Origin: Verrucomicrobiota bacterium
GTDB taxonomy: Bacteria; Verrucomicrobiota; Verrucomicrobiia; JADLBR01
Reading direction: 5' to 3'
Length of the DNA: 46,525 nt
Assembly (NCBI GenBank): GCA_029560585.1
Contig: JAKQKQ010000017.1
Location: 1-46,525 of the forward strand
Shown here piece after piece: positions 2,593-38,188 of the stretch. Within the stretch, counting starts at the first letter, position 1. Every line of letters starts with the position of its first letter. The notes beneath the pieces are model-generated. The model saw nothing but the letters and a program-made list of their open reading frames with translations. It did no database searches and was not told the origin of the DNA. Both the position numbers and the translations under genes were made by a program.

Positions 2593-2616
2593 GATGGGGC
2601 CTCCCAGGATGGTTTC

Positions 2617-6431: not shown

Positions 6432-6466
6432 GTGTTTTCTCCCGACGCAACGGTCCGTGCCACTTC

Positions 6467-8107
6467 TCATTGCCTCCAGTCCGTCCGACCCTGCCATTCC
6501 TCCAACGCATCCGCCATCGCCCGCTTCCTCGGCGCGCACGCCACCTCGCCGATCCGGTTTTTCGTCTCTCCCGGGTCATTCCGGAGATCGTACAGCGCCT
6601 CTCCCGCATCGGCGTAGCGGATATACTTCCACCCTTGTCCGCGGACCATGAACGATGCCCCCGCCCTCTCCCCCCGCTGTCGCGTGTTCCCCTTTCCCGG
6701 CGTAACGCGCTCGCAAAAGGCGAAGCGCCGCGCCTCCGACGCCGCCTTCCGCCCCGTGAGAAACGGCACCAGGCTCTGCCCTTGCGCCGTGGGCGGGCAC
6801 GTTCGGCCCGTGATCTCAAGAAGGGTTGGCATCAGATCCACCAGATTCGCCTCCAGATCGCATTCCTGCGGCCTGAAAAGCGGAGGGTATCGGATCAGCA
6901 GGGGAACCCGCACGATCTCGTCATAAAAGGAACTGTTGCTCTTCCAGACCATGCCGTGGCCACCCGCCATGTCACCGTGGTCCGCGGTGAAGACGATCAC
7001 AGTGCTGTCGGTCTGGCCCGACTCGCCCAGCGCCGCTAGAATCCGACCCACCTGGTCGTCGATCATTCTAACCATCGCGTAATAGACCCGCAGGAACTCG
7101 CGCAATCCCTCCCGCCCAAAGCCCAAGACCATTTGCCGCGACCAGCTCTTCTCGTGGCGGGGCTCTCGCGCGTCGCTGTCTGTCGGCAGCGCAATCGCCG
7201 CCGGATCGAACATCTCGTAATACGGCGATGGCGCAACGTTCGGATCGTGCGGCGCGTTGAATGAGCACGTGATCATGAATCGCCCTCCGCCCATGGAGCG
7301 GATGCAGTCGATCACTTTATCGGCCACCCGAACGTCGAAGCTCTTCGACGGCGGCATCTCCAGCCGGCCCATCTTTTTGACAAAATCCAGATGCGGTGCC
7401 CGGGCCGACCAAATCGATTCCGCCGCGACCAAGGCCTCGCGATATCGGGAATCGATCGATACGGGCAGCGCCCAGCCGTACCAGTCCATCCAGGAGTCGC
7501 GGCCGGTCTTTCGGACGGCATCGAACGCGGGTGCCATCTCCCGCGCATAGGCGCCGTGCTCGGTAAACATGTCGGTGTAGTACGGCAGATCGTCGTCGAG
7601 CAGATGCCATTTCCCATAAAAATGTGTTGAGTATCCCGCCGCGTGTAGGATGCCCTCGGTCGTCACATCGGTGACCTTGATGCCCTCTTCCGTCGGCGGC
7701 GCGGGCACGGCGGGATAATCCCGCCGCATGACGTTATAGGTGATCCCATGGCTGTGCGGATAGAGCCCCGTCACGATAGTCGCGCGCGAGGGTGAGCACA
7801 CCGGCCACGGACAGGATGCATTCCGGAGCAGCACGCCCTCGCGCGCGATGCGGTCGATGTTCGGCGTCTGGACCGGCCCCCCGTAGCATCCCAGCACACG
7901 CGCGTTGAGCTGGTCGCACATGATGACGAGTACGTTCGGCGCCCGCGCGCCGACCGCGGCCTGTGCGCCCACGGCGATCATGGCACCCGATGCCAGGATC
8001 GAGCGCCACAGCGACCGGCGCCCGATCCGGGCCCGCGCCCCTGCTGCCACCATCATTCCGATGGCCGCAACGACCAGCCGCCAACTGCCCCGCAGCGCTG
8101 AGCCCAT
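6467..8107 (-). CDS. Exported S1 family sulfatase
   Basis: This sulfatase has 546 residues from ATG 8107, which lies 5 nt after the transporter stop. C104-S-P-S-R is the formylglycine motif, preceded by NVLVIMCDQLNAR (first metal site) and followed by TGLYPHSHG. FYGKWHL and FTADHGDMAGGHG match conserved blocks of the choline-sulfatase/heparan-sulfatase-like branch. The N-terminus has two hydrophobic stretches; the second is preceded by RRSLWR, resembling a Tat signal, so translation may start at Met18 or Met19. It is the third sulfatase of the operon and sits directly after the sugar porter gene. Confidence 0.92.
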   Translation of the reverse strand: MGSALRGSWRLVVAAIGMMVAAGARARIGRRSLWRSILASGAMIAVGAQAAVGARAPNVLVIMCDQLNARVLGCYGGPVQTPNIDRIAREGVLLRNASCPWPVCSPSRATIVTGLYPHSHGITYNVMRRDYPAVPAPPTEEGIKVTDVTTEGILHAAGYSTHFYGKWHLLDDDLPYYTDMFTEHGAYAREMAPAFDAVRKTGRDSWMDWYGWALPVSIDSRYREALVAAESIWSARAPHLDFVKKMGRLEMPPSKSFDVRVADKVIDCIRSMGGGRFMITCSFNAPHDPNVAPSPYYEMFDPAAIALPTDSDAREPRHEKSWSRQMVLGFGREGLREFLRVYYAMVRMIDDQVGRILAALGESGQTDSTVIVFTADHGDMAGGHGMVWKSNSSFYDEIVRVPLLIRYPPLFRPQECDLEANLVDLMPTLLEITGRTCPPTAQGQSLVPFLTGRKAASEARRFAFCERVTPGKGNTRQRGERAGASFMVRGQGWKYIRYADAGEALYDLRNDPGETKNRIGEVACAPRKRAMADALEEWQGRTDWRQ

Positions 8108-8112
8108 ACCCC

Positions 8113-9459
8113 TCACTTCCTCCAACTCGCCTCGATCTCCTCCAGCGTCCGGCCCTTGGTCTCCGGAATCCATAAAATCACAAACACCATGCTCAGCAGG
8201 CTGAGCCCGCTGTACACCCAGAACGTCCTCGAGGGACCCGCCGCCTCCAGCAGCATCGGGAATGTCTGGGACACGATGAAACACGCCAGCCACAAGAGAA
8301 AGATGGACACCGACATCGCGCGGCCACGCAACTTCGTCGGAAAAATCTCCGAGTTGACGATCCACGAAACCGGCCCCATCGCCATCGCGAACGCGGCCAC
8401 GAAACACAATACCCCCGCCAGCAGCATCCACCCTGGCCCACCTCGGCCGAAAAGCAGCCCCACCACGAACAGGGCCGCGGCCTGCACTGCCGTGCCAATG
8501 ATCAGCAGGACGCGCCGCCCCGCCCGATCGACGAACGCGATCGCCACGAAGGTGAAGAGGAGATTCACCGCCCCCACCGTGACGGTCTGGGCGAACGCCG
8601 AATCCCGGCCCGCGCCCGACGCCTTAAAGATCTCCGGTGCGTAGTACATCACGGTATTGATGCCACTGAACTGGCTGAACACCGCCAGCAGCGCCCCAAG
8701 GACCAGCGGGCGCCGATAGGCCGTCAACAGTTCCATCCACCGACCCTCCTCCTGCGCCAACGCCCCGCGGATCTCGACGATCTCCCGCGCGGCATTCTCG
8801 GGCCCACCGATGCGCTCCAGGATCTCCAGCGCGCGCCCCTCAAGCCCCGCCTTCATCAACCACCTCGGACTCTCTGGAACAAATGCCAGCAGGACCCCGA
8901 ACGCCACCGACGGAAGCACCAGCGATCCGAACATCCACCTCCAGCCTTGTTCCACATTCCACGCCTCGTCTCCCAACCGCTGGATCTGAAGGTTCATAAA
9001 GAAAACCATCAGGATCCCCATGACGATCGCGAGCTGATAAAGTGCCACGAGACGACCCCGGATCTTCTCCGGCGATATCTCCGCGATGTATATGGGCGAC
9101 AGGATCGAGGCCGCCCCGATCGCAAGCCCTCCCGCGAACCGCGCCCACGCGAACTGCCCGAGCGTCGCAGGCACCGCCGAAGCGGCCGACGACACCGCGA
9201 ATAGGGCCGCGCACAAAAACAGGCTCGCCTTCCTCCCCAACCGATCCCCCACCGGCCCACCAAAAATCGCGCCGAACATGCACCCCACCAGCACGCTCGA
9301 CGCCGCCCAGCCCGTCAGTTCCGCAGAAAGGCGAAAATGTGATTTCAGAAAACCGATCGCGCCCGAGACCACGGCGGTGTCGTAACCAAACAGGAACCCC
9401 CCAAATGCCGCCACCAGGCTGATCAGGAGGATGTAGCCCACGTTCAAACCACTTTTCAT
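8113..9459 (-). CDS. MFS sugar porter (XylE-like family)
   Basis: This is a 448-residue inner-membrane sugar:proton symporter-type protein with about 12 transmembrane segments. Family signatures are visible in order: GYDTAVVSGA in TM1, DRLGRK between TM2 and TM3, PESPRWL in the central loop, DRAGRR between TM8 and TM9, and PETKGRTLEEIE at the C-terminus. ATG 9459 is preferred over GTG 9468 because GAGGTGAGG lies just upstream of it. It is the only transporter in the operon; no SusC/SusD pair and no ABC importer are present. The locus therefore most likely imports mono- or small oligosaccharides released outside the inner membrane. The transported sugar is unknown. Confidence 0.93.
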   Translation of the reverse strand: MKSGLNVGYILLISLVAAFGGFLFGYDTAVVSGAIGFLKSHFRLSAELTGWAASSVLVGCMFGAIFGGPVGDRLGRKASLFLCAALFAVSSAASAVPATLGQFAWARFAGGLAIGAASILSPIYIAEISPEKIRGRLVALYQLAIVMGILMVFFMNLQIQRLGDEAWNVEQGWRWMFGSLVLPSVAFGVLLAFVPESPRWLMKAGLEGRALEILERIGGPENAAREIVEIRGALAQEEGRWMELLTAYRRPLVLGALLAVFSQFSGINTVMYYAPEIFKASGAGRDSAFAQTVTVGAVNLLFTFVAIAFVDRAGRRVLLIIGTAVQAAALFVVGLLFGRGGPGWMLLAGVLCFVAAFAMAMGPVSWIVNSEIFPTKLRGRAMSVSIFLLWLACFIVSQTFPMLLEAAGPSRTFWVYSGLSLLSMVFVILWIPETKGRTLEEIEASWRK

Positions 9460-9469
9460 CGGCCTCACC

Positions 9470-11554
9470 TCATTTCTTGGTCGCGCCGCCCGCGCCTCCG
9501 CCGCCCACGGGGAACATGCTCACCCGAAATCGCGTGCAGCCGTAAGGCACCAGAGTTATCGAGGCGGGCTTGCCGCCCTCGACCGGCGCCGCCGGCAACG
9601 GCTGCAGTTCGGTCGGCTGCCAGTCGAACTGGATCGCGGGGACGAGCATCTTCACGGGCGCGTCAAGCCCCCACGACCAATGCCCGGGCATCGGCCCGCG
9701 GAGCACCCGCGAGGCATCCGATGCCGACGCCGCATCCAGCGCGTAGTTGAACGCCGTCCCCCCCACCGGCTCGTTCGGGTCCTTGTCGGCGATCGGCAGC
9801 GCGAAGAGGAGAGGGCCATGGGTCACGCAGGCGAATGGATTGTGGATCTCGGTCAACTTCGAGAGCGCTCGTTTCTGGTAGTATTTGTCCTGGGGATACG
9901 GCGTCTCGTGACCCTCGATGATCTCGGTGTGCATCGGCAGTCGCAGGATCACCCGGTCACCGTTGGACCAGACGCGCCGGAGTCTCGCGAAACCCCTGCC
10001 GTCCACCTCCTGTGCAACCGGCCGACCGTTGACCTCGATCGACGGCCCGCGACACCACGCCGGGATGCGCAGGCATAGCGGGAAGTCCACTTCGCGCTCA
10101 GGCCTGACCGTCATCCGGATCTCCTCCTCAAACGGATAGGCGGTCTCGCACGTGATCTCCACCGCCGACCCATCGGCCACCCGCGCGCGTAACGAGCACG
10201 GGCCATACAGAGTGGCCGCAAGCCCGCGATCCTCGGTCGCCATCCACATGCCCATGATGAAATTCGGGATGATCCGGTTGCAGTTCCCGACGCAGCAGAG
10301 CACCGGATGCCCGATGGGCGTGAAACGGTAGCTATCACCCAACTGGCCGCCGGGACAACCAGGCCGATCGCCCGGAAATGTCATGCTCATCCGATTCGGA
10401 CTCTGGTAATAACTCATCGTTTGGAAATCGCGCGCGATCGGCGCGGGACCGGCATTGAAGAATACTTTCTCCATCCGGTCGGCCCACACCCGATCGCCCG
10501 TGATGCGCAATAGCCATTGAAAGGTCCACGGCCCCGCCGCGACGTTGCAGGTCTCCACGTTGCGCGTCGAACCAATGCCCGCGAGATACTCCTCGCCAGA
10601 TACGAGCCCCGACGGCAGCCCATGGCGTCGCTCCGCCAAGGCGATCGCTCCCAGTGTCGCGTCCAATAACCTGCGATCGCCCGTCCACGGATACATCAGC
10701 GCTGGCACGCGGACGTTTTCGTAGAAAATGACCGTGTGCCCGTGCGCGATCTCGCCACCATTCCATTGCGCGACGATCCTCTCGAAACCCGGTCGCCGGA
10801 CGGCCGCGATCGCATTGCCCAACACCTTTTCGTCGCCGCTCATCATGTAGGTGTCGAGCATCGGGTCCAGGTTGACCATGCCGTTGACGGGATAGAAACC
10901 CACCTGAAACTCCGGCAAGGGATAATCGCGATAGGCTTTGACGAGCGCGTCGAGGATGCGCCGCTCGCCCGTGGCCTGATAGTATGCGACCAGCGCGCGG
11001 CCCATGTGCGAGTGGGCCCAGTTGTTGAAAAGGCCGTTGACCTTGTCCATCTCCACGTCGAGGATCCCGCGCGGCCGCCAGTAGACAAACGATTCGCCGC
11101 CCCTGTTCACGCCATCCACCACGAGGTCGAGGCGCGACCGTGCTTTCTCGATGAGTGCGGGGTCGTCGAGGATGTAGGCCAACCGAACCAGCCCATCGAG
11201 CCAATAGGCGCACTGCTCCAGCGGCCAGCCCGTCCCATTCGCTTTCACGCCCTTTGCCTCGAAGTGGTAGCCCCGATATCCGTGCTTGAAAACGTCCGCG
11301 CGCTCGTCGAGGTGACCGGTGATACCCTCGGCCGCGGCGCGCGCCCAATCGTTCAACCAGCCGGCGGGCCGCACCGCACCTGGTGGCAAGGGGATGAGGG
11401 GGTATTGGATCTTCGGCCCCTTGGCCCCCGCGCACAACGCCCGCACATCTGCGCCCACCGCATCGCGACCGCGCGCGGATTCAGTCTGCTCGCTTCCCTG
11501 TAGCCAGGCGGCCGGCAACACCAGCATCCATCCAAAAGCCACCGTGCGCATCAT
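9470..11554 (-). CDS. Exported GH127 family glycosidase (beta-L-arabinofuranosidase-like)
   Basis: This protein has 694 residues from ATG 11554, which overlaps the upstream stop (ATGA) and begins a Sec signal (MMRTVAFGWMLVLPAAWLQG). The body matches the DUF1680/GH127 (alpha/alpha)6 family. In the characterised Bifidobacterium enzyme a Zn-bound Cys cluster (one E-x-C and a Cys pair) forms the active site. Here E334-T-C336 and C420-C421 fit that pattern and spacing. The family removes beta-L-arabinofuranose; other specificities exist in the clan, so arabinose is likely but unproved. It lies between the sugar porter and the isomerase-like gene. Confidence 0.9.
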   Translation of the reverse strand: MMRTVAFGWMLVLPAAWLQGSEQTESARGRDAVGADVRALCAGAKGPKIQYPLIPLPPGAVRPAGWLNDWARAAAEGITGHLDERADVFKHGYRGYHFEAKGVKANGTGWPLEQCAYWLDGLVRLAYILDDPALIEKARSRLDLVVDGVNRGGESFVYWRPRGILDVEMDKVNGLFNNWAHSHMGRALVAYYQATGERRILDALVKAYRDYPLPEFQVGFYPVNGMVNLDPMLDTYMMSGDEKVLGNAIAAVRRPGFERIVAQWNGGEIAHGHTVIFYENVRVPALMYPWTGDRRLLDATLGAIALAERRHGLPSGLVSGEEYLAGIGSTRNVETCNVAAGPWTFQWLLRITGDRVWADRMEKVFFNAGPAPIARDFQTMSYYQSPNRMSMTFPGDRPGCPGGQLGDSYRFTPIGHPVLCCVGNCNRIIPNFIMGMWMATEDRGLAATLYGPCSLRARVADGSAVEITCETAYPFEEEIRMTVRPEREVDFPLCLRIPAWCRGPSIEVNGRPVAQEVDGRGFARLRRVWSNGDRVILRLPMHTEIIEGHETPYPQDKYYQKRALSKLTEIHNPFACVTHGPLLFALPIADKDPNEPVGGTAFNYALDAASASDASRVLRGPMPGHWSWGLDAPVKMLVPAIQFDWQPTELQPLPAAPVEGGKPASITLVPYGCTRFRVSMFPVGGGGAGGATKK

Positions 11555-13395
11555 GTCTTTCGCCCTTTCTCTTGCCCGTGGGTTGCGACCATCCGATCGC
11601 TTCGTCCCCCGCAATGAGCGAAAATGCCCGTCCTCACAAAGGCTTTCATCGTCCCCATCTCACGGTTTGCCGGCCCCACGCCTGGCCGGATCGTGTACTT
11701 TCCCACCGCCGCCGGGACGATGAACGTCTCTGCGTAATGCACGACAAACGGAGCGAATGCACCATCGGGGCTCTCCACGACCGCTTCCTGGCCCTCCACG
11801 AGATTCAGCACATTCACGCCGCCGCGTTCGATCCCGCCCGTGTCGTGTGGCACTCGGCCCGAAAACCAATGCCGCCGGGTCTCTATGAACTCGCGCTCGT
11901 GCAGGCCCGTCCTCTCCTCGCGCCACCCTTCGCCCGAGGCGATCGCCACGACCCTGTTGATCAGGTTCTCCCTCACCCAGTCCGTGTCGCGCCCCCATTG
12001 GATGTTCGCGAGTCCGTGGTCCAGGTGGATCGGCCGGGGCCTCCCATCGAGCCCGAGCCGCGCCCAATCCCACATCTTGAACGTGAAAATGTAGGGCGTG
12101 GCGCTGATTTCCAACACCATGCTGTTCTTGCCCGAGCAATGGCACGTGCCCGCAGGGATCAGGAAATGATCGTGTTTCCTCGCGGGCCAGCGATTCACGT
12201 ATTTCGCGTCGTCGAACGGTGCCCCGCCCGCCTGCGCGGATGCCAACCCGCGCGCCATCGCAGCGCGATCGGCACCCGGCGTCAGGCCAAGGTACACGCA
12301 GGCGTCGGGAGCGGCATCCAGAATGTAGTAGCTTTCGTCTTGCGTGTAGTGCATCCCGAACTTCCACTGGATGTATTCGGTCATTGGATGCACCTGAAAA
12401 CTCAGGTTCCCCCCTCCCATCGTGTCCAGGAGGTCGAAGCGGATGGGAAACTCGTCACCAAAGCGCGCGTGGACGGCGTCGCCCAACAGCGCGCGGGGCC
12501 GATCGAAGACGATGTCGATCGCGGGGATCTCCACGCGATGCTCGCCCATGCCCAGCAACAGTGAATTCTCCTCCGGCACACAGTCGAAGCACCATGCGTA
12601 GTTTGGCGCCGTTCGATCGAGGTCGCACACCTCCTTCATCCACTGCCCGCCCCACGGCCCGGGATCAAAGAACGGCACGACCCTGAACGGTCGCCGCGTG
12701 GCTTCCTCCAGACCACGGCGCACGGCGTCGCCCTGGGCCAATTTCGGCGCGGCCCGATCATTCGTGTCCAGCAGGAAATCGAAACGCCTTAGCAGGGGCT
12801 TCTTCCATCGGTCGGCCACGCGCCAATCGATGAAGAACGCCCGCTTGTATTTTGCCCCGGGCGATTGCCCGGCGTTGCTGGCACCGAGGTTCCCAATCTC
12901 GCCCTGCCGCTGCCGCCGCTGGATCTCCCACCGGGCCAAATCGGCGTATAAGAGGATATCGCCGTCCGCAATCATACGCCCGCCCACGCCGACCACGAGC
13001 ACCACGCCCTCCGTCACCGCCGCGACCCGCGATTTGAATTCCGCCACGCGCCCCCCATCAAAGAACTCGGGTAACTCCAATGGCGACAGATAGCCAAACA
13101 CCGGATCGCCGCCGCCCAGCCATGGGGCGCAGAGTCGATCGATGTCGTCAGGCGGCTTTAGCGCCTCGGCCGATCGCAGGGAGAGCAAGGGCCGCAGTTC
13201 GCGCGCCAGGCAGTCGGCGACCCCCGCCTCGTCGACACCCGGGTAGCACTCCACGACCACCACCGCCCTCGTCGCCCCCCGCGCCGCGATCGCTTCGCGC
13301 AAACGCGTTCCGATCGCCCCCCAGCCCGAGACGCATGCCGCATCGGCCCCGGGCACCGCCAGAAACGGAGACCTGTCGTAATTCGATGCGCCCAT
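11551..13395 (-). CDS. Mannose-6-phosphate isomerase-like protein with a long N-terminal extension
   Basis: The protein has 614 residues, against about 300-420 for ordinary class I mannose-6-phosphate isomerases. The C-terminal half carries metal-site signatures: LSFQVHP (Q334, H336), QDESYYIL (E354) and IPAGTCHCSG. This fits Zn-dependent interconversion of mannose-6-P and fructose-6-P. Residues 1 to about 250 have no signature I recognise beyond a Rossmann-like hydrophobic strand (AVVVVECYPG) and a second hydrophobic run (VVLVVGVGG) near 120-130; it may be a nucleotide- or sugar-binding domain. There is no signal peptide, so it is cytoplasmic. GGAG lies 5 nt before ATG 13395; GTG 13401, overlapping the upstream stop as GTGA, is an alternative start. 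Confidence 0.8.
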   Translation of the reverse strand: MGASNYDRSPFLAVPGADAACVSGWGAIGTRLREAIAARGATRAVVVVECYPGVDEAGVADCLARELRPLLSLRSAEALKPPDDIDRLCAPWLGGGDPVFGYLSPLELPEFFDGGRVAEFKSRVAAVTEGVVLVVGVGGRMIADGDILLYADLARWEIQRRQRQGEIGNLGASNAGQSPGAKYKRAFFIDWRVADRWKKPLLRRFDFLLDTNDRAAPKLAQGDAVRRGLEEATRRPFRVVPFFDPGPWGGQWMKEVCDLDRTAPNYAWCFDCVPEENSLLLGMGEHRVEIPAIDIVFDRPRALLGDAVHARFGDEFPIRFDLLDTMGGGNLSFQVHPMTEYIQWKFGMHYTQDESYYILDAAPDACVYLGLTPGADRAAMARGLASAQAGGAPFDDAKYVNRWPARKHDHFLIPAGTCHCSGKNSMVLEISATPYIFTFKMWDWARLGLDGRPRPIHLDHGLANIQWGRDTDWVRENLINRVVAIASGEGWREERTGLHEREFIETRRHWFSGRVPHDTGGIERGGVNVLNLVEGQEAVVESPDGAFAPFVVHYAETFIVPAAVGKYTIRPGVGPANREMGTMKAFVRTGIFAHCGGRSDRMVATHGQEKGRKT

Positions 13396-13397
13396 GG

Positions 13398-15365
13398 TCA
13401 CTCCGCCGCCGGAAAGGTCGCGCGTCGCAAGAGGGAACTGCCGTGGGGCAGCAGCGTCACCTCGACATCGCCCCCCGCCGCGTCCCGCATCTTACCCCGC
13501 AGGCCCATCGGCGGGTGGCCCCATGGATCCAGCGAATCGTGCCCCTCCAACGCCACTGGCAGAAACGTGGCGTCCTTCGGCATCCGATAGTTCCAGGGAG
13601 CATCTTCTCTCGGCGTCACCTCGAAAGCATGAAAGCCGCTATCCTTGCCCCCCACGAGCCTGAGGTCTTCACTCACCTTGACGTCCGCCGGAAGCGGCAG
13701 CGAGTAGATGAGCGGGCCGCGAACAACGAACAGGTTACCATCATGGGCCCGCTCCATCCGCGGGCTGAAACGAAAATCCACGTGCACCTCTGCCGCCCCT
13801 TCCCATCGCCGGCTCACCTCGATCCGGCCGGGCAATTTTCGGATCGCCGCGCCGTCGCACGCCTCGACGCTAACATCGCCCGCGCCATCCGGCACGCGCA
13901 CCACCAGCGAAAACTCGACCGCCCGACTTGGCTCGACACGAAGGAGAATCGCGTCCCCAAACGGATATGCGGTCTCCTCCAGGATGCGGACCGGCACCCC
14001 GGCCACCTCCGTCTCCACGGCGCAGGGCCCGAAAAGCGCCGCCACCAGCGCGGGCCGGCCCGCCGCCAGATACCACATCCCCTCCACGTAGTACGGGAGC
14101 AGCCTCGTCGAGTTCAACGTGCAGCAGGCTGCGGCCCGATGGTAGGCGGCGTAGACGCAGCGCCCCCTGTGCAGCGTGCGGTCATCCGCCGATCGCTGAT
14201 CATCGTGACCAAGGTACTGCACCGCGACGTTAACCGGATGGAAGCGCGCGGCCTGGGCCGCGTTCAGGCACGTCCGCTCGGCGAATCTGGCCACCGAGAG
14301 ATCCCCCGAGTATGCCACGATCTGGTTCAACGACGGGATGCCCTCCGTCATCGAGCAGTACTCGCCCCACGTGTCGCCCGTCCCCTCGCGCCCCTTCACA
14401 TCTTCGTCGCCGACAATGTTGCCCGCCGGAGTGGTGTGGAGTTGGAGTTTGGTCAATGCGCTCGAGGCCGCCGCCCTGAAATCCTCGCGGCCAGTGAACG
14501 CGGCGCATATCTGCGCCATGTGGAGTCCCTCCATGATGTGCGGCGTGTGCTTCTGGAAATGGCGCCCGGCGTCCAATAGCGACCCCAATTGCATGTCGCC
14601 GTCCCGCACCTTGTGGCGCGAGTAATCCTCGTACAACCAGACCGCACCATCCCGGAATGCCGCCTTGCCCGTAATGCGGTAGAGCCACTCCAGGGTGTCC
14701 GTGAACCCCACCCCGTGCGACACACCGCCGTCGCGCTCTACCCCACGGCGCCCAAAGTACGTCCCAACCTTGTCCCGGTAAGTCGCCAGCGTCAGCGCCG
14801 CAGCTTTCTCCACCGCCTCCAATACCTCCCGCGATCCCGTGAACTCATGATACGCCAGCATCGCCTGGAATATCCGGCTCTGCGTCCAGAGTTCGCCATC
14901 CGCCCCTTTTGTCGGGAACCGCGTCTCGGGAGAATAGATCCCTATGTAGCCGTCGGGACCCCGCGCTGCGAGGATCGCCTCCATCCAACCCCTCGCCCTC
15001 TCCTTCAGCGCCTCGTTGCCAGTCAGGAATGCGAGGCGAACCATCGCGTCCTTCCAGTATCCCTCGTGCTCGCCCGCCCACCACGATTGTTCCTTGCTGA
15101 CCTCGTCCCCGTGCCTCACCTCAACGAAACCCGGTGCCCGCTTCTGTGCCGCGAAAAGCTCCAGTGAGACGCTCGTCCAGATCCGCTCGTAGGCGCCCGC
15201 CAGACCCTCCCCCAGATCCCGCCGCATCTGCTCCCTCATCCAGCCCTGCGGCATGACCGCACCCGCGCGCAAGGGCCTCAGCGGCGGCACCTCCCCGGAA
15301 TGTGATCCGGCCATCAGCCCGAGATGGGCGGCCCAAAGTATCATGACGCGGCCCCATGATGTCAT
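13398..15365 (-). CDS. Exported GH127-like family protein (DUF1680 type)
   Basis: The protein has 655 residues from ATG 15365, which has GGGGAGG at 7 nt spacing; in-frame ATGs at 15371 and 15389 are too close to or upstream of that site. A Sec signal covers about residues 1-24. Family blocks include WTQSRIFQAMLAYHEFTG and a catalytic cluster comparable to the neighbouring GH127: E335-Y-C337 and C414-C415. The two proteins are otherwise divergent, so this is a distinct subfamily rather than a recent duplicate. It probably removes a terminal furanose-type or related sugar outside the cytoplasm; specificity is not readable. It lies 36 nt downstream of the cupin gene and its stop overlaps the start region of the isomerase-like gene. 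Confidence 0.87.
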   Translation of the reverse strand: MTSWGRVMILWAAHLGLMAGSHSGEVPPLRPLRAGAVMPQGWMREQMRRDLGEGLAGAYERIWTSVSLELFAAQKRAPGFVEVRHGDEVSKEQSWWAGEHEGYWKDAMVRLAFLTGNEALKERARGWMEAILAARGPDGYIGIYSPETRFPTKGADGELWTQSRIFQAMLAYHEFTGSREVLEAVEKAAALTLATYRDKVGTYFGRRGVERDGGVSHGVGFTDTLEWLYRITGKAAFRDGAVWLYEDYSRHKVRDGDMQLGSLLDAGRHFQKHTPHIMEGLHMAQICAAFTGREDFRAAASSALTKLQLHTTPAGNIVGDEDVKGREGTGDTWGEYCSMTEGIPSLNQIVAYSGDLSVARFAERTCLNAAQAARFHPVNVAVQYLGHDDQRSADDRTLHRGRCVYAAYHRAAACCTLNSTRLLPYYVEGMWYLAAGRPALVAALFGPCAVETEVAGVPVRILEETAYPFGDAILLRVEPSRAVEFSLVVRVPDGAGDVSVEACDGAAIRKLPGRIEVSRRWEGAAEVHVDFRFSPRMERAHDGNLFVVRGPLIYSLPLPADVKVSEDLRLVGGKDSGFHAFEVTPREDAPWNYRMPKDATFLPVALEGHDSLDPWGHPPMGLRGKMRDAAGGDVEVTLLPHGSSLLRRATFPAAE

Positions 15366-15401
15366 CTTCATGCCTCCCCGTTTCCGCATTTTGTGATCAC
15401 G

Positions 15402-30148: not shown

Positions 30149-33100
30149 ATGAAATACCACCGACGCCTCATGCGCCTTACTTCAGCCACGGCACGTCCCA
30201 CCAACCCTTCAGTATCCCCAACGGTCAACAAACGGACCACTCCGCACCCGTCCGTCTCACGGGTCAATCGCTCGTGCCGAACGACCGCATTTCTCGCGGC
30301 CATAGCGCTCTTTCCCTGTGCCGCTCGCGCCATCGATGTCACATGGGAACCCCAGAGTCCCACGATCGGTTTTGCATCCCAGGAGGGCACGGCCTTCTAC
30401 AGCCTCGACATGCGCGACATCGACCTCGGCAACGGCCTGAGGGTGCCCCTGCGGTTCGTCTTCGACAGCGCGGCGACCATCTCCCCGGCCACGGCCACCA
30501 ATGGCGTGCCGGAGGGCGATGACTTCCGGAAAATGCGTTTCCTCAGCAGCCAGTCCTATGGCTGGGTCGGCTGGGGCTGCGCGCCGCTGGAGGCCTGCAT
30601 CGCGCAGGTGCGAGAAGACCAGTACAAGGTCCTCTACCCCAACGGACGCGTCGGTTACCTGCAGCAAAGCACGGTCGACCAGCAGGGCAATCCCTTGCCG
30701 GCAGGGCAGTCGCGCCTCTACTCCCAGCACATGCGCTGGGAGGGCACCGTCGATGGCGACGAAATCACGTTGACTCGATGGGACGGCTGGCGCGTCGTAT
30801 TCGAAAATGGGCGCATTGAGTCCATGCGCACCGACAAGGGCCGCACGTTCCTCTGGGAACGCCTCGGCCCCGACACCAAAACCTCCCGAATTTACGAGCC
30901 ATCCACCAGCACCACATTCCTCCAGGCCACGTATGGCGCCGATGGCCGCGTCGCCACCATCCAGGTCAACGGTGACACCTACACCCTCGCCTTCGATGGC
31001 AGTGGAGCCAACAGCCACCTCACCCGCATCACCCATCCCGACGGCGATGTGGACGCATTCGGCCTTTTGACCGGCCCTTCCCCAGTCATGAACCACACAA
31101 ACCACTTCGGCGTCGCGCTCACGCTCGCGTGGAATCCCACCAACCGCTGCGCGATCACCTCCGATGGCAAGTGGTCCTATGCGGTCCAGCATGTCGCCCA
31201 ACCCGGATGGGCGGAGGAACGCGGCCAGATCTATAACCTGCCATCTATCGAGATGACCCGCCCCGCCACCGGAGAAAAAATCAAACTCCAGTCCCAGGAG
31301 GGCAACACCACGGAAACGTTTACTGCCATCGATGACACAAAGATCGTCCGCTATTCCTACGAGGCCCAGGGACCCGTCAATGGCAAGTTGTACAAGATCG
31401 TCCAAACACAGGGGACGACGAATACCGTCCTCTACCGGGCGGACTACGATGCCGCCAACGGTCGCGTGCTGCGCACTTTCGATGCCCTGGGACGAACCAC
31501 TCTCTACACCTGGGAAAACCAGACCAACGCCCACCGGTTCGCACCGGCCCGGAAAAGGACGGTCACCAATCCTGCGGGCGAGATCCGCACGACCGAATAC
31601 GACGTCGAGGGCCGCCCCATCCTCTTTACCGATGCGGCCGGCGTACAACGCCGTATCGAACGCGACGAGCGCGGCCGTCCCATCCGCATCTACAACGATG
31701 CCAACACCCTCGTCCGGCAAATCACGTACAACAACCTCGACCGCGTCCTCACCGATACGCGTATCGATAACGGGGTCTCCCGCACCTGGACCTACGACTA
31801 TGCGGAACATGATGGCGAGAGCCTCCTCACACGCATCACGTCGCCCGAGGGCGTCGTCATCGAATACGACTACAACAACCGAGGCAACGCCATCGGGGTG
31901 CGCCGCGCCGGCGGACAGTGGACATTCACGCGCAACGCCGATACCCAGCGAATCGAGATGATCAAGGACTCGTACCTGTCACCGACCCGGTTCGAGTACG
32001 ACGCGCAAGGCAATCTCACCAAAGTCACCGACCCGTTGAACCATTCAATCGAGATCGGCTATGACGATCTCGACATGCCCAACCTCCTCCACGACGCCCT
32101 CGGCGCCGAGGCTCATCTCGCGTGGAACGCCGATCGCTCGTGGAAGACCATCGATGACTTCCGCAACAAGCGCTACACGGCAAAACACGACCACGCCGCC
32201 GCAGCGATTGGTGAGGCCGCCTCAGGGATGTTTCCCGTCACCCAGCCCGCGATCCGTTCCGGTTCCTACATGCGCGAGCAGGATCGCCTGGAGGTGGAAT
32301 TCACGTTCCCCGACGGTGCCAAGGACCAGCGCACCTTTGACGCCAACCGCGACATCGCCCAGTGGCAGGCCCGCGGCGCCCAGGCCACGGCGGCGTACTC
32401 GCGCGATGCCGCCGGACGCATCGCCCAAATCGACTGGAGCCACCTGGGCCGCAACGGCTCGATCACCTTCGGCTACACGAATGCCCAACTGATAGCAGCC
32501 TCGGCCCAATCGGCCGGTGTCACGATCTCCCATACCTTCGGCTACGACGCCGAGGCCCGCCTCGCATCGCTCGCCCAAAACGGACGCACGGCCCAGATGA
32601 CGTACTATGCCGACGGCTCGCTCAAGGAGATCGTTTACCCCACCGGCATGCATGTGCTGTACCGCTATAACGCGGATGGCAACATCTCCGAGATCAAGAA
32701 GGACGGCGTCACCCTGGCCTCATATCAATACGACACCCACGGCCGCCGATCCCTCCGCACGCTTGCGAACGGCCTGTCCACCTCCTACGTTTATGACGAC
32801 GTGAGTCGGCTGACGGATCAGGCGCTGGCGGGAAGCGGGGGCACGCTCCGGCAATGGCACTACGGCTTCGACGCCGCGGGGAACCGCTCGTGGACCGTCT
32901 ACGGCGCCATGACCAACGCCATCGGCGACGCCTACCGCCACGACGCCATGGGCCAGATCACCGGCGTCAAGTACGACGCCGCCAACGCCCCCGCCGGCTA
33001 CGACGCCGCCCAGGCCGCCCAAGGCGAAACCTTTACCTACGATGACGCCGGGAACCGATTGCAGAGCACCTTCAACGGCCAGGCCACCACCTACACCGTC

Positions 33101-34060
33101 GATGACCTCAACCGCTACACCGCACTCTCCGGCGGCATGAGCGCATCGCTCAACTACAACGCCCGCGGGGACCTCCTCGGCTGGTCCGGCTGGTCCTACG
33201 CCCACGACGCCTGGGGTCACATCATCGAGGCCTCCAAACCCTCGACCGGAGAAACCATCCGCTACCACTACGACGCCTTCGGGCAACGAGCCGGGAAGAC
33301 GGTCGGCTCAGGTGCCCCCGTCTGGTATTTGCATCACGAGGACGACCTCATCGAGGAATTCGATACGGCCACCCAATACGCCGTCTCCTACATCTTCGAG
33401 CCGGGCATCGACCGACCGCTCGCCCGCGTCGACCACACCACGGGCCAGATCGTGTACTACCACGCCGACTTCCTCGGCAGCACCGTCGCCCTCAGCGATG
33501 CCTCCGGTAACGTCGTCGAGGAGTACCGCTACGAGGTCTTCGGTGCACCCACCCTCTTCGACGCCTCCCACTCCACCCTCGCCACCTCCGCCTTCGGCAA
33601 CCGCTTCCTGTTCACCGGTCGGGAATGGGACGCCGAGACGGGGTTGTACCACTACCGGGCCAGGGCGTATGCGGCCGAGGTGGGGAGGTTTCTTGCTGGG
33701 GATCCGGTTCGGTTTCTGGGCAAAGATTCGAACTTGAATCGTTATGTCCAAAACGCCGCCCTCGGTTGGAGGGACCCATCGGGCACTAACCCGGTGGCTG
33801 ACTTTCTCAAAGGGGTTCTCATTGACCACATCCTCAACGAGCTTAAGGAGGCGGGCGAGGAGGCACGCAAGCATGGACCGAGCCGCGAAATGTGCGAGCC
33901 CACCGGAACCGATCAAAACGCGCCCCCCAACCAAGCGCAATCCCCAACTCCCACACAACCGGACCCTCAAGACTCCCAAGGGACCCAATCGTCCGATCCC
34001 TCCAGCAGCGAAACAACCGGGAACATGCCCCCCGGTTCCGCAACCGCACCCGAATTCTAA
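30149..34060 (+). CDS. RHS-repeat protein with Sec signal and low-complexity C-terminal tail
   Basis: This 1303-residue protein has a hydrophobic signal at about residues 44-60 (AFLAAIALFPCAARA). Residues from about 300 onward carry many YD-type repeats (YDxxGR-like) that build the RHS shell. The RHS-associated core (LYHYRARAYAAEVGRFLAGDP) lies around 1166-1187 and ends with WRDPSG near 1212. The remaining 90 residues are a variable tip: a short amphipathic helix (ILNELKEAGEEARKHG) then a Pro/Gln/Ser/Thr-rich tail ending SATAPEF. The tip shows no recognised nuclease, deaminase or protease motif. No VgrG, PAAR or type VI genes are nearby, so export is probably by Sec. A CPBP-like membrane protein gene follows. 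Confidence 0.93.
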   Translation: MKYHRRLMRLTSATARPTNPSVSPTVNKRTTPHPSVSRVNRSCRTTAFLAAIALFPCAARAIDVTWEPQSPTIGFASQEGTAFYSLDMRDIDLGNGLRVPLRFVFDSAATISPATATNGVPEGDDFRKMRFLSSQSYGWVGWGCAPLEACIAQVREDQYKVLYPNGRVGYLQQSTVDQQGNPLPAGQSRLYSQHMRWEGTVDGDEITLTRWDGWRVVFENGRIESMRTDKGRTFLWERLGPDTKTSRIYEPSTSTTFLQATYGADGRVATIQVNGDTYTLAFDGSGANSHLTRITHPDGDVDAFGLLTGPSPVMNHTNHFGVALTLAWNPTNRCAITSDGKWSYAVQHVAQPGWAEERGQIYNLPSIEMTRPATGEKIKLQSQEGNTTETFTAIDDTKIVRYSYEAQGPVNGKLYKIVQTQGTTNTVLYRADYDAANGRVLRTFDALGRTTLYTWENQTNAHRFAPARKRTVTNPAGEIRTTEYDVEGRPILFTDAAGVQRRIERDERGRPIRIYNDANTLVRQITYNNLDRVLTDTRIDNGVSRTWTYDYAEHDGESLLTRITSPEGVVIEYDYNNRGNAIGVRRAGGQWTFTRNADTQRIEMIKDSYLSPTRFEYDAQGNLTKVTDPLNHSIEIGYDDLDMPNLLHDALGAEAHLAWNADRSWKTIDDFRNKRYTAKHDHAAAAIGEAASGMFPVTQPAIRSGSYMREQDRLEVEFTFPDGAKDQRTFDANRDIAQWQARGAQATAAYSRDAAGRIAQIDWSHLGRNGSITFGYTNAQLIAASAQSAGVTISHTFGYDAEARLASLAQNGRTAQMTYYADGSLKEIVYPTGMHVLYRYNADGNISEIKKDGVTLASYQYDTHGRRSLRTLANGLSTSYVYDDVSRLTDQALAGSGGTLRQWHYGFDAAGNRSWTVYGAMTNAIGDAYRHDAMGQITGVKYDAANAPAGYDAAQAAQGETFTYDDAGNRLQSTFNGQATTYTVDDLNRYTALSGGMSASLNYNARGDLLGWSGWSYAHDAWGHIIEASKPSTGETIRYHYDAFGQRAGKTVGSGAPVWYLHHEDDLIEEFDTATQYAVSYIFEPGIDRPLARVDHTTGQIVYYHADFLGSTVALSDASGNVVEEYRYEVFGAPTLFDASHSTLATSAFGNRFLFTGREWDAETGLYHYRARAYAAEVGRFLAGDPVRFLGKDSNLNRYVQNAALGWRDPSGTNPVADFLKGVLIDHILNELKEAGEEARKHGPSREMCEPTGTDQNAPPNQAQSPTPTQPDPQDSQGTQSSDPSSSETTGNMPPGSATAPEF

Positions 34061-34142
34061 GCCAGAGTCGAGTGAATATGGAACGCACACCGATCCGATC
34101 CAGCGCTGTGTGGATCACCCGCAAGAATGGCATGGCCAGCCC

Positions 34143-34652
34143 GTGCGTATAATAAGACGAATCCTCTCCGCGCTGTCAGACACGGATCAACCGCTCATCG
34201 GGTACGCTTTCAAAGCGGCTCTGATATCGGTTGTTCCGAGTCTGGTGGTCGGCTTTGTGGCGTTACCCCTACTCCCCGGCACGCCTCTTCCAATTCAACT
34301 TGACATCCACACCGGTCCGATGCTGTTCGGAATTGCCGTCCTCGTTTCCCCCTGGCTGGAAACTCTCCTCATGTGGCCCGTGCTCTGGCTGCTCGGTCGC
34401 TTGACACGTAATCCGATCCATCAGGCACTGATGTCCACCGCCTTTTGGGCACTCCTCCATGCGATCCGGCGCCCAGCGCGCGCGCTCTGCGTGGCGTGGG
34501 GATTCTTTGTCTTTTCAGTCTGCTTTCTCGCCTGGAAAAGACGCTCGACTGGATCCGCTCTGCTGGCGACGGGCTTTACGCATTCATTCGACAATCTATT
34601 TATTCTCATGGCCTGGGCAGCCACTGAAGGCAACGGCTGTGGAACTGATTGA
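34143..34652 (+). CDS. CPBP-like intramembrane protease family protein, copy 1
   Basis: This 169-residue membrane protein has four to five helices. Residues in the order expected for CPBP/Abi proteases are visible: a Glu in PWLETLLMWP, FWALLH, and the final HSFDN. The first motif is E-T instead of the usual E-E, so activity may be altered. I chose GTG 34143 because it matches the N-terminus of the second copy (both read x-D-Q-P-x-x-G-Y about 20 residues in). It follows the RHS gene by 82 nt. In bacteria such proteins serve in prenyl-type processing, self-immunity and defence. Linkage to the RHS tail suggests an immunity or processing partner, which is inference. Confidence 0.72.
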   Translation: MRIIRRILSALSDTDQPLIGYAFKAALISVVPSLVVGFVALPLLPGTPLPIQLDIHTGPMLFGIAVLVSPWLETLLMWPVLWLLGRLTRNPIHQALMSTAFWALLHAIRRPARALCVAWGFFVFSVCFLAWKRRSTGSALLATGFTHSFDNLFILMAWAATEGNGCGTD

Positions 34653-34752
34653 TGCGCCGAAGCCGTCAACATCGGAGACCATCCGCTGCCACTACGACGC
34701 CTTCGGGCCGCGCGCCGGAAAGACCGTCGGCACCGGAGCGCCCACCTGGTAC
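34648..34752 (+). pseudogene. RHS fragment A (internal piece)
   Basis: The frame reads PKPSTSETIRCHYDAFG followed by RAGKTVGTGAPTWY, matching the RHS gene at about 33233-33330 (KPSTGETIRYHYDAFG..RAGKTVGSGAPVWY). Homology then breaks off and the frame ends at 34830. It has no start of its own and overlaps the last codons of the CPBP-like gene. This is debris of an RHS gene left by recombination. Confidence 0.85.
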
Positions 34753-34899
34753 CCGGGATATGGACTGGCGAATGGGTTGGAATCCGTGGGATTGAAACAA
34801 CTGCCAGGGCCATGTCGATGCCGTTATTAACGAGTATCGTCGGGTCGCAGATGACCGAAACAACGACCGATGATCGACTCTAATCTCCGAAAGTGACCC

Positions 34900-35466
34900 A
34901 TGCAACCCTCCGCATTACATCTCCAGAAATCGCAAATCGCCGCCAAATTTATCATCATGTGCGCTGTGATAATCTCCTGCTTTTCTGCGGCAAGGGCATC
35001 TGGCCTTTGGCGGCTCCTGTTCCCCTCTCGAGATCTGTTCAATCTGCTCGTAAACGAAAACATCGATATCACGTGCATTGGGGCCGCCATCTCCGCTGAT
35101 TTTACACTTAAATATGACGGCCCGTACACGGCAGGGATACTCCTCACAAACTTATCTTCGCCACGAGGTGGCGATGGGATTGCCTTGGCCCTACGCATGC
35201 GCATCGATTTTTCCGATGGCGAGCAATTGAAACATTCCGTAACGTCTGGCGCGCAATACACGCCGTTCATCGGATTGACGGGCAACGCGTTATCGCTCGT
35301 TGAGTTTCGTTCACCTGAAGACGTCCCGAAGGGCAGGCCCATAAAATGTGTGGCCACAATCGTGACGCCCGATGCAAGTCTGGCAAACAAGTACGGCACG
35401 GCCAGCTTCTTTGTCCAGAAGCGGTCTGACAATTATGTAACAGGAAAGAGTCGGGGTGCACCGTAG
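34900..35466 (+). CDS. Low-GC secreted protein of unknown function
   Basis: This 188-residue protein has a Sec-type signal (FIIMCAVIISCFSAARA, about residues 17-33), possibly a lipobox-like LxxC variant but not convincing. The rest is beta-rich, with ADFTLKYDGPYTAGILL, LRMRIDFSDG, LSLVEFRSPEDV and CVATIVTPDA, suggesting one or two beta-sandwich domains. Base composition drops to about half G+C, well below its surroundings, suggesting recent acquisition. It sits between RHS fragments. Such a position is common for immunity genes of polymorphic toxins, but I recognise no immunity family with confidence. Confidence 0.6.
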   Translation: MQPSALHLQKSQIAAKFIIMCAVIISCFSAARASGLWRLLFPSRDLFNLLVNENIDITCIGAAISADFTLKYDGPYTAGILLTNLSSPRGGDGIALALRMRIDFSDGEQLKHSVTSGAQYTPFIGLTGNALSLVEFRSPEDVPKGRPIKCVATIVTPDASLANKYGTASFFVQKRSDNYVTGKSRGAP

Positions 35467-35476
35467 GCGTCTGTGC

Positions 35477-35775
35477 AACCCAGGAGCGGCGGCAGCCTTC
35501 CTCGCCGGATATATTTTCGGAAAACTGACCGAGTGCCTTGAGGACGCAATAAAACATGTTATGGAAGACGCCAAGAGAAACGGGGGGACAGTCCTCACAT
35601 GGGCGACTTAACCGGTGTTAATCAGAATGTACCACCAAACCAGGCGTAGTCGCCTGACACCACGCAATCCGATCCCAATGGCAATGAAACCCAAGACTCT
35701 GGACAGTCGGGCCCGTTCAGCAGCGAAACAACCGGGAACATGCCTTCCGGTTCAGTCACGGCCCCTGAATTTTAG
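35477..35775 (+). pseudogene. RHS fragment B: decayed second copy of the RHS C-terminal tip
   Basis: The first frame reads NPGAAAAFLAGYIFGKL followed by KRNGGT, comparable to the NPVADFLKGVLIDHIL...RKHGPS start of the RHS tip, and ends at a TAA. A shifted frame continues TGVNQNVPPNQA, then a TAG stands where the intact gene has CAG, and the same frame goes on to SSETTGNMPSGSVTAPEF and stop, nearly identical to the intact tail (SSETTGNMPPGSATAPEF). One frameshift and one nonsense change therefore separate it from a full tip. It lies just upstream of the second CPBP-like gene. Confidence 0.88.
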
Positions 35776-35835
35776 GCCTAATTACAGGACGGCTGCAACC
35801 GCTTAGACGCAATATCATTGTACCGATGATGGCCC

Positions 35836-36384
35836 ATGATGGCGGACAAACGCAGCAGAACTGTATCACGAATGAAGCCGGTTCTTTCCTGGCTTCGCGA
35901 TAGATTGGCGAATACGGATCAACCGGTAGTGGGTTACGCTATCACGGCAGCCCTCATATCGTTTGTTCCCAGTTATGCGATCGGCCTCTTGGTTTCACCT
36001 CTGTTGGTCGACATAGCGCCTCCGTTTGCAGTCGAAAGGCACCTAAACCCCCTCGGATTTGTTATGATGGTTCTCGTCGGTCCTTCGGTTGAAACGGTGC
36101 TTATGTGGCCAATGCTATCGTTGTTCGGCCGCATGACCCGAGAGCCGACGCGGCAGGTGATCGTATCAACCGTCTTCTGGGCAATCCTGCACGGAATAGC
36201 GCACCCTCTGTGGGGCTTTCTCATTTCATGGCCATTCTTTGTTTTCTCGATGGCTTTTGTCGCCTGGAAGAAGCGCTCGGCTCAGGCAGCAATTCTGGCA
36301 ACGGGTTTGACGCACTCATTTCACAATCTTGGGGTTCTAATCAGCATTGCGGCCACAATGGACGGCCCGGCCAACATGCCGTAA
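35836..36384 (+). CDS. CPBP-like intramembrane protease family protein, copy 2
   Basis: This 182-residue membrane protein (or 170 from ATG 35872) is homologous along its whole length to the protein at 34143, with roughly half the residues identical by eye. Equivalent motifs are PSVETVLMWP, FWAILHG and LTHSFHN. The E-T in motif 1 is kept, so it is a subfamily trait rather than decay. It follows a degenerate RHS tip just as copy 1 follows the intact tip. The region is lower in G+C than the island average. The open frame is intact although its RHS partner is broken. Confidence 0.72.
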   Translation: MMADKRSRTVSRMKPVLSWLRDRLANTDQPVVGYAITAALISFVPSYAIGLLVSPLLVDIAPPFAVERHLNPLGFVMMVLVGPSVETVLMWPMLSLFGRMTREPTRQVIVSTVFWAILHGIAHPLWGFLISWPFFVFSMAFVAWKKRSAQAAILATGLTHSFHNLGVLISIAATMDGPANMP

Positions 36385-36496
36385 TGCTGGTTCTCTTTGA
36401 TTTCCGTGGCGGCGATGATTGGAACGTGTTTGCCTGATGATCCCGTGCGATCCCGGTCGCAAACGAAGACGTTTCGGCAGTGGCTATGTTAACGAT

Positions 36497-36997
36497 GACA
36501 TCCGTCCCCACCGCTCCCTCCGCGCCCTTGCCAACGGCCTGCGCACCTCCTGCGCTCATGATACCATGAGCCGGCTGACGGATCAGGTGCTGGTGGGCAT
36601 CGGCGGCACGCTCCGGAAATGCCACTACGGTTTCGACGCCGCCCTCAGCGACAGCTCCGGCAACATTGTCGAGGAATACCGATACGAGGCCTTCGGTTCG
36701 CCCACCATCTTCGACCCGTCTCACTCCACCCTCGCCACCTTTGCGTTCGGTAACCGCTTCCTCTTCACCGGCCACGAGTGGGATGCAGCGACAGGGCTGT
36801 ACCACTACCGGGCAAGGGCGCACTCGGCGGAGATGGGAAAGTTCCTGCAACCGGATCCAATTCGATTTGCCGCAAGCGATCGAAACGCCTACCGCTATGC
36901 ACTCCATTCACCGACATGTTTCCGCGATCCTTTAGGCCTCGATGATGACGGGTGGGATCACATTCCGTGCTTTGGGATCAATAGAACGGCGAGATGA
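36497..36997 (+). pseudogene. RHS fragment C with a precise internal deletion
   Basis: The frame reads RSLRALANGLRTS through CHYGFDAA and then directly LSDSSGNIVEEYRYEAFG, LYHYRARAHSAEMGKF and a short end GINRTAR. In the intact RHS gene the two blocks are separated by about 610 bases (32880-33488); the join lies at a shared CGC. The deletion keeps the frame. The end differs from the intact tip after RDPLGL, so it represents another tip variant, now truncated. There is no proper start or signal peptide. Confidence 0.87.
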
Positions 36998-37018
36998 CGG
37001 ATGCTGCGATGATCGCGA

Positions 37019-38188
37019 TCAGAGATTGCACGCGTCCAGCGAGACCTGGTGTACCTTGAGATCGTGTTCGTAGAGTCCCGGCGGATTGGGAATCTCGCCG
37101 CGGAGGATCCTCGCGAGTTCGTGGAGCTGTCCGGCATAACGGTCGTCCGGCGCCTTGAACTCGATGCAGTTGAGGCCTTCCTTGTAAGGCGGCTTCGCCT
37201 TCTTGAGGAACATCTTCACGACCAGCTTGTCGACGCGGGAGAGTCCGTTCTCGTTGAGCCCCGTGGTGTGTTTCACCTTGCGGAAGTCCTCGATCGGCTC
37301 GATCTCGATCGTGCCGTCCGTCCCGTCGATGCGGATGTGGCGGCAGGGCTGTGTGCCCCGCGAGCAGACGCGGAACGTCGCAATGCAGCGCGGATACTCC
37401 ATGACTGTCAACGTATGCGTCGGTGCATTCTCCGGATCGCCCGGCGCGGGCTTGACGATGGAATAGGTCTTCTCCGGCATCGCGTCGTCGAAGATCGGCA
37501 TCGCCCACTCGATCGCATGGCAGGCGAGCAGGTAAGCGGTACCGCCCGGATACGCCGAGGCGTATTCCGGATACTTCGGGTATCCGTAGCTGTGACTGAG
37601 GTCCGCCCCGATCGCGAACACCTCGCCGATCACCCCGTCATGCGCGAGCTTGGTGGCGCAGTTGATCGCCTCGTTCGCACGGAACATGTATCCGATCTGA
37701 AGCGGGATGCCGCGCGCCTTGCAGATGCCGCTCATCCGCCTGAAGCCGACCGGATCGGTGCCGAGGGGCTTGTCCATGTGCATCGGATACCCCGCCGCGG
37801 CGATCTTGGTCGAGACCTCGACCAGCTCCGAGTTCGAGACCTCGACGACGATCAGGTCGGGTTTCACCTCATTGAGCACCCGGTCCGGCGTCAGCTTCGG
37901 GAACTTCTCATACTTCTTGGGGTCCGGATCCTTCATGCGCATGGCGGTCGATGCGGTGTCGTCCACCCAGCCGACGACCTCGAAGTCGTTGGTGAGCTTG
38001 AGGAGCGCCCCGAACTTGCCCTCCGCATGGTTGTGGACGATGCCCCAGAGAACAACTTTCGCCTTGCGGTTGCCGATCGGCTTCCACTGCGGTCCCGACA
38101 TCGCCGCATCATCGATGCGAGAACAGCCGGCAAACAATGCCGCCAGCGCCAGGCAGGAAACAAAGGACAGACAAGACTTACGGGACAT
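37019..38188 (-). CDS. Gfo/Idh/MocA-family oxidoreductase, predicted lipoprotein
   Basis: This 389-residue protein starts at ATG 38188 (AGGA upstream). The first 25 residues form a lipoprotein signal ending LAALFAGC. The Rossmann part begins VVLWGIVHNHAEGKF, which is not the classical GxGxxG, so nucleotide binding is uncertain. MHMDKPLGTD carries the family EKP-like motif (DKP here) with the catalytic Lys. The C-terminal dimer domain follows. Family members oxidise sugars or cyclitols with NAD(P). A lipid-anchored member is odd because soluble cofactor is in the cytoplasm. It is the last gene of a three-gene minus-strand set, 21 nt after the next oxidoreductase gene. Confidence 0.82.
   Translation of the reverse strand: MSRKSCLSFVSCLALAALFAGCSRIDDAAMSGPQWKPIGNRKAKVVLWGIVHNHAEGKFGALLKLTNDFEVVGWVDDTASTAMRMKDPDPKKYEKFPKLTPDRVLNEVKPDLIVVEVSNSELVEVSTKIAAAGYPMHMDKPLGTDPVGFRRMSGICKARGIPLQIGYMFRANEAINCATKLAHDGVIGEVFAIGADLSHSYGYPKYPEYASAYPGGTAYLLACHAIEWAMPIFDDAMPEKTYSIVKPAPGDPENAPTHTLTVMEYPRCIATFRVCSRGTQPCRHIRIDGTDGTIEIEPIEDFRKVKHTTGLNENGLSRVDKLVVKMFLKKAKPPYKEGLNCIEFKAPDDRYAGQLHELARILRGEIPNPPGLYEHDLKVHQVSLDACNL

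Follow-up and report, generated by a model that had tools for sequence, protein, structure and literature searches.

Displaced rhs tips were described by Jackson et al. 2009 (PMC2935791) and orphan rhs-CT/rhsI modules by Poole et al. 2011 (PMC3150448). Such loci combine a main rhs gene, a variable tip after a DPxG junction and a small downstream gene with an array of core scraps and displaced tips, which again have small genes downstream. Some CAAX/Abi proteases, which belong to the CPBP superfamily of membrane proteins, are credited with bacteriocin immunity in the literature summarised in PMC9298176, and other CAAX/Abi proteins process peptides or serve as receptors (PMC9298176). PrsW, an intramembrane protease distantly related to CPBP, has been linked to RHS toxins, which it is proposed to process (Zhang et al. 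2012, PMC3482391). Here we analysed a stretch of 46,525 nucleotides from a Verrucomicrobiota bacterium (contig JAKQKQ010000017.1; hereafter the window), in which an RHS gene ending in a short variable tip (tip A) is followed by a gene for a CPBP-like membrane protein (CPBP1), and a second, broken tip (tip B) by another such gene (CPBP2). Our best reading, to which we give a probability of about 0.5, is that a membrane-acting RHS tip is paired here with an Abi/CPBP-type immunity protein. Most simply, the locus would hold a toxin tip and its membrane-bound immunity partner together with an older copy that was displaced; its layout is a known one and the choice of a CPBP partner is what is unusual.

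The original prediction had claimed that two RHS tails are each followed by a CPBP-like gene, and that the second tip is decayed by one frameshift and one in-frame stop while the CPBP-like gene behind it is intact. Translation and the identity between CPBP1 and CPBP2 (52% over 151 aa, E 3e-51) bear out both statements. The RHS protein itself is built in the expected order, with a signal-peptide-like N-terminus (judged by eye only), RHS repeats and an RHS-associated core, a sharp DPSG junction between core and tip, and a variable tip with no real relative among 388 genomes; above the cut-offs of Pfam and NCBIfam, only RHS families matched this open reading frame (ORF). A blastn self-comparison revealed scraps of the RHS core downstream of the main gene, where tip B and a third tip also lie; the scraps, at 34675-34751, 36508-36642 and 36637-36846, retain 81-83% DNA identity to it. 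Tip B has no RHS core or DPxG junction of its own in front. Because core scraps and an extra ORF of 188 aa sit among the modules, the locus is the displaced-tip array, or orphan CT-immunity layout, known for rhs rather than a simple tandem duplication. It differs from the loci described before in that the partner is a CPBP-superfamily membrane protein and the tip is short, amphipathic and without a known toxin domain.

Both tips run from a predicted amphipathic helix through a linker to a tail; tip A is largely of low complexity. For the helix of tip A the hydrophobic moment is 0.61, a value that 2 of 1000 shuffles reach, and for the fragment of tip B it is 0.62 (1 of 1000 shuffles). This amphipathicity fits a membrane-active peptide but is no proof of one, and by the Kyte-Doolittle scale tip A has no transmembrane segment; its tail is hydrophilic and lacks a basic end. 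Between the two tails, 2 of the 18 residues are different and 84% of the DNA is identical. Synonymous divergence between them is high (pS 0.54) and nonsynonymous divergence low (pN 0.05), with a binomial P of 0.001 for so few amino-acid changes, and by this comparison the tail is conserved at the protein level. When the whole genome was searched (7.06 Mb in 336 contigs), only these two tips were found, no other protein bore the tail, and CPBP1 and CPBP2 were the only close copies of their kind.

CPBP1 is a multi-spanning protein. Its frame contains no ATG from the stop codon of the RHS gene to where the conserved region begins, and the start is likely the GTG at 34143 (or that at 34113). Against the Rce1-like family of Pfam, CPBP2 and CPBP1 score 16.5 and 15.7 bits, below the cut-off of 22.4, which is exceeded by a relative in genome G307 (22.7 bits) and by an RHS-adjacent one in genome G013 (38.3 bits). 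An hhalign comparison of four family members with 21 canonical CPBPs of the class gave a probability of 95.7%. E86, H119, H160 and N164 of CPBP2 lie at the CPBP catalytic positions and are retained in both copies; in 10 sequences three of these positions are invariant and H119 is nearly so. In place of the EExxxR motif of canonical type II CAAX proteases both copies have ETxxMWP, the second E being replaced by T and the R by W. These comparisons suggest that the two proteins are divergent relatives of the CPBP superfamily, and they lack the complete motif of a canonical CAAX protease. The E-T motif, which the original prediction had singled out as unusual, is indeed present but is no mark of an RHS neighbour, since it also occurs in CPBP relatives without one (G307 and G361). 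An AlphaFold2 model of CPBP2 made from a two-sequence alignment had a mean pLDDT of 50.6, too poor for fold comparison, and searching the sequences of the PDB with the two CPBPs found nothing. Degenerate-pattern scans of 84,980 species genomes and of IMG/VR returned no close homologue of the pair, nor did tblastn of CPBP2 against plasmids and phages.

The CPBP genes share 65% of their DNA, with pS 0.65, pN 0.35 and pN/pS 0.54 (binomial P 1e-5), a pattern indicating that both are under purifying selection. The low DNA identity of the CPBP genes and the high synonymous divergence of both tail and CPBP imply that the modules split long ago; they are old homologous units, not the product of a recent tandem duplication. 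The decay of tip B is recent relative to that split, because constraint can still be read from its tail, and both modules were probably functional over the greater part of their history. The claim that co-duplication implies a functional pair holds in part: the pairing is supported by the shared order, by purifying selection and by RHS-CPBP adjacency in two other genera (see below), whereas co-duplication is too simple an account of what is a displaced-tip array.

Coordinates in the window of the RHS gene, the tips, the CPBP-like genes and the fragments between and behind them
Feature	Position	Strand	Remarks
RHS/YD-repeat protein, 1303 aa	30149..34060	+	PF05593 RHS_repeat, E 8.9e-32, 10 stretches; NCBIfam TIGR03696 Rhs_assc_core, E 6.6e-17
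Tip A, 91 aa after DPSG	33785..34060	+	amphipathic helix TNPVADFLKGVLIDHILNELKEAGEEARKHG, disordered P/Q/S/T-rich linker, conserved C-terminal tail
Tail of tip A, SSETTGNMPPGSATAPEF plus stop	34004..34060	+	end of the intact RHS ORF
CPBP-like membrane protein 1 (CPBP1), 169 aa	34143..34652	+	GTG start; frame open from 33738
RHS-core scrap	34675..34751	+	homologous to 33251-33327, 83% DNA identity
188-aa ORF	34900..35466	+	signal-peptide/transmembrane-like N-terminus; between the two modules
Tip B, broken	35468..35775 (start about)	+	order of helix, linker and tail as in tip A; tail SSETTGNMPSGSVTAPEF plus stop at 35719-35775
CPBP-like membrane protein 2 (CPBP2), 182 aa	35836..36384	+	intact ATG ORF
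Two fused RHS-core scraps	36508..36846	+	homologous to 32743-32877 and 33484-33693; TIGR03696 E 5.9e-17
Third tip remnant after DPLG, LDDDGWDHIPCFGINRTAR	36938..36997	+	from sequence

For the 188-aa ORF between the modules, Pfam gave no match and a set of 384 genomes no relative; the position of the ORF fits that of an immunity protein, which may have belonged to another, lost RHS tip. PADLOC gave no match, and Rfam none over 33500-37100. Elsewhere in the window, on the minus strand at 1186-15389, lies a sulfatase cluster (three Pfam matches) that also includes two GH127 arabinofuranosidase-like proteins, likely a polysaccharide-use locus.

Relatives of the CPBP pair were sought with a two-sequence profile, which found them in 3 further genomes among 388 of the phylum, and with a four-sequence profile, which found them in 6 further genomes among 384 of the class. 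In G534 a CPBP gene lies directly 3' of an RHS gene of 1748 aa. In G013 an RHS gene with a tip of 82 aa runs 32 bp into the CPBP gene, the product of which scores above the Pfam cut-off, if the CPBP gene starts at its ATG; a later in-frame start is possible. An RHS gene followed by a CPBP gene is found, independently, in two further genera of the class, which contradicts the condition that would have told against the original prediction, namely that CPBP homologues never stand beside RHS genes elsewhere. By chance, 0.003-0.012 such adjacencies are expected per genome, a figure that assumes random placement and is not a formal test. The pairing of RHS and CPBP genes is rare, and most close CPBP relatives sit elsewhere, in ordinary or bacteriocin-export loci. 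The relative in G307 adjoins ffh, and one copy in G013 lies near an exbBD-like cluster (by eye). In G361 the CPBP relative, of the E-T type, sits in what by eye is a bacteriocin-type export locus (L030, 4800-13700), with an HlyD-like protein, two C39-peptidase genes, one of them a full ABC transporter, and a short ORF that carries a GG motif (LTAILGG). A search of 141 genomes showed CPBPs to be common in every one of them; two genomes of genus g231, G438 and G534, carry 14 and 9 Rce1-like matches against 2-5 in most genomes of the class.

Among RHS loci of the class, 48 had tips that could be parsed. These tips are mostly of 100-300 aa with a small gene close behind, and in about half a membrane or signal segment is predicted. 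The partner genes are highly varied, as expected for polymorphic toxins, and a CPBP is a rare choice among them. Other short RHS tips occur in the class at loci L126, L114 and L167, and L114 and L167 share a CxxCSKEE motif; these could represent further short-tip families. At L159 (G022) a hydrophobic RHS tip of 63 aa is followed by a multi-spanning protein of 150 aa that does not match the CPBP profile, another pair of short tip and membrane protein. Two matches to the window tip were rejected as chance, one in G206, where the reading frame is not RHS, and a weak one in G011 (E 2.6e-4, 29% identity), in a short frame with a stop.

We favour a membrane-acting tip with a CPBP immunity protein because of the displaced-tip layout, the selection on CPBP and tail, the adjacency in G013 and G534, the bacteriocin-type context in G361 and the amphipathicity of the tip; that a small ORF directly follows the tip, as rhsI genes do (PMC3150448), also counts for it. 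The RHS shell would be Sec-exported and carry tip A, a putative short membrane-active effector made of an amphipathic helix, a flexible linker and the conserved tail. CPBP1, encoded directly 3' of the tip, would be its immunity protein in the inner membrane of the producer, where it might cleave the tip or block it on entry, in the manner of Abi/CPBP proteins acting on some small bacteriocins. The second module, tip B with CPBP2, would be a related one of greater age that has lost its place on the RHS core, and an intact CPBP2 beside a dead tip could be worth keeping as protection from siblings that still bear tip B. What the sequences themselves show is the anatomy, the homology of the two modules, the purifying selection, the retained catalytic residues and the recurrence of RHS-CPBP adjacency; export, toxicity, the membrane as target and immunity are inferred, as would be any part of proteolysis in immunity. 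A close parallel is Abi/CPBP immunity in lactic acid bacteria (Kjos et al. 2010, as cited in PMC9298176), where a small CPBP-superfamily membrane protein also stands beside a small membrane-active peptide, the latter being proposed here; at this locus the peptide would be the tip of an RHS protein of 1303 aa, the EExxxR motif is incomplete and immunity is putative.

Several observations weigh against this assignment. Tip A matches nothing in Pfam and so brings no known toxin domain, and the tip has no relatives outside this genome, neither in the 388 genomes nor in a degenerate-pattern scan of the 84,980 species genomes. A CPBP stands behind the tip in only 1 (G013) of about 80 RHS loci surveyed in the class, by a profile that included the window CPBPs and may miss distant or divergent ones; G534 was found through its CPBP and is hence not part of an unbiased count. 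Its tip is long and unrelated, so that a CPBP can accompany more than one kind of tip, and the amphipathicity of the G013 tip is weak (reached by 55 of 1000 shuffles). Moreover SilX, a CAAX protease of a bacteriocin locus, does not provide immunity, its role apparently being the processing of a signal peptide (PMC9298176).

The rarity of the adjacency, the commonness of CPBPs in general, the ordinary surroundings of most relatives (such as those near ffh and the exbBD-like cluster) and the low complexity of the tip would also be explained if the CPBPs were mere cargo of rhs recombination and the tip a non-toxic spacer or surface tail. We consider such incidental adjacency rather unlikely, given that the same order is found in two modules here and in two other genera, that the expected number of chance adjacencies is far below one per genome, and that tail and CPBP are both under purifying selection. 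That constraint bears as well on the view of tip A as a degenerate remnant beside a CPBP that once gave immunity to a long-lost tip; the shortness of tip A, its decayed neighbours and the missing ATG of CPBP1 would suit this account, yet the ORF of tip A is intact and protein-level conservation of its tail relative to tip B is not expected of a remnant, which makes it very improbable.

A further alternative, that CPBP is a processing or release protease which cuts the RHS tip or tail while the protein is being exported or once it has arrived, with the tail as its recognition site, draws on the E/H/H/N residues kept in both CPBP copies, on the conservation of the tail and on the link of PrsW to RHS toxins; PrsW, however, is fused at the N-terminus of the toxin, whereas the CPBP here is a separate gene behind the tip. 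It is also in line with a CPBP that sorts C-terminally tagged proteins in Myxococcus (PMC11980579) and with a weak match of CPBP2 to MrtJ in NCBIfam (E 3e-4, 21 bits). In Myxosortase/MYXO-CTERM and JDVT-CTERM/MrtJ, too, a CPBP-superfamily protease is paired with a C-terminal tail, but the tail of tip A lacks the tripartite signal of such substrates (a C-terminal signature with a Cys motif, a transmembrane helix and a basic cluster at the end), and the MrtJ score is far below the cut-off of 75. The tail is on no other protein of the genome, the tips of G013 and G534 have none despite their CPBPs, and EExxxR has lost its second E and its R, all of which makes processing unlikely. The original prediction had left the choice between effector/immunity and export-processing; the latter finds little support in the sequence, and an effector/immunity pair with a putative toxin appears the better half of that guess.

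A full-text search for Rhs or polymorphic toxins together with CPBP or CAAX, with partial coverage of the literature, found no paper proposing a CPBP as an RHS immunity partner. A 2026 survey of Morganella lists CPBP genes as 'miscellaneous' in a table of type VI secretion system effectors and immunity proteins; in PMC8163844 'CPBP' stands for a locus tag and does not refer to the family. We tentatively raise the possibility, on balance doubtful, that single-Glu CPBP-superfamily intramembrane proteins of the E-T/E-S type are a recurrent class of RHS immunity protein, directed here against a new, short, amphipathic and membrane-acting tip. Prokaryotic CPBP proteins are widespread and mostly without an assigned function, and a part in immunity to RHS tips would, if true, give some of them a concrete role. 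It would also extend Abi-type bacteriocin immunity to polymorphic toxins, linking it to the contact-dependent weapons of the RHS family, and would suggest that membrane-acting peptide tips exist among RHS proteins that have no recognisable toxin domain.

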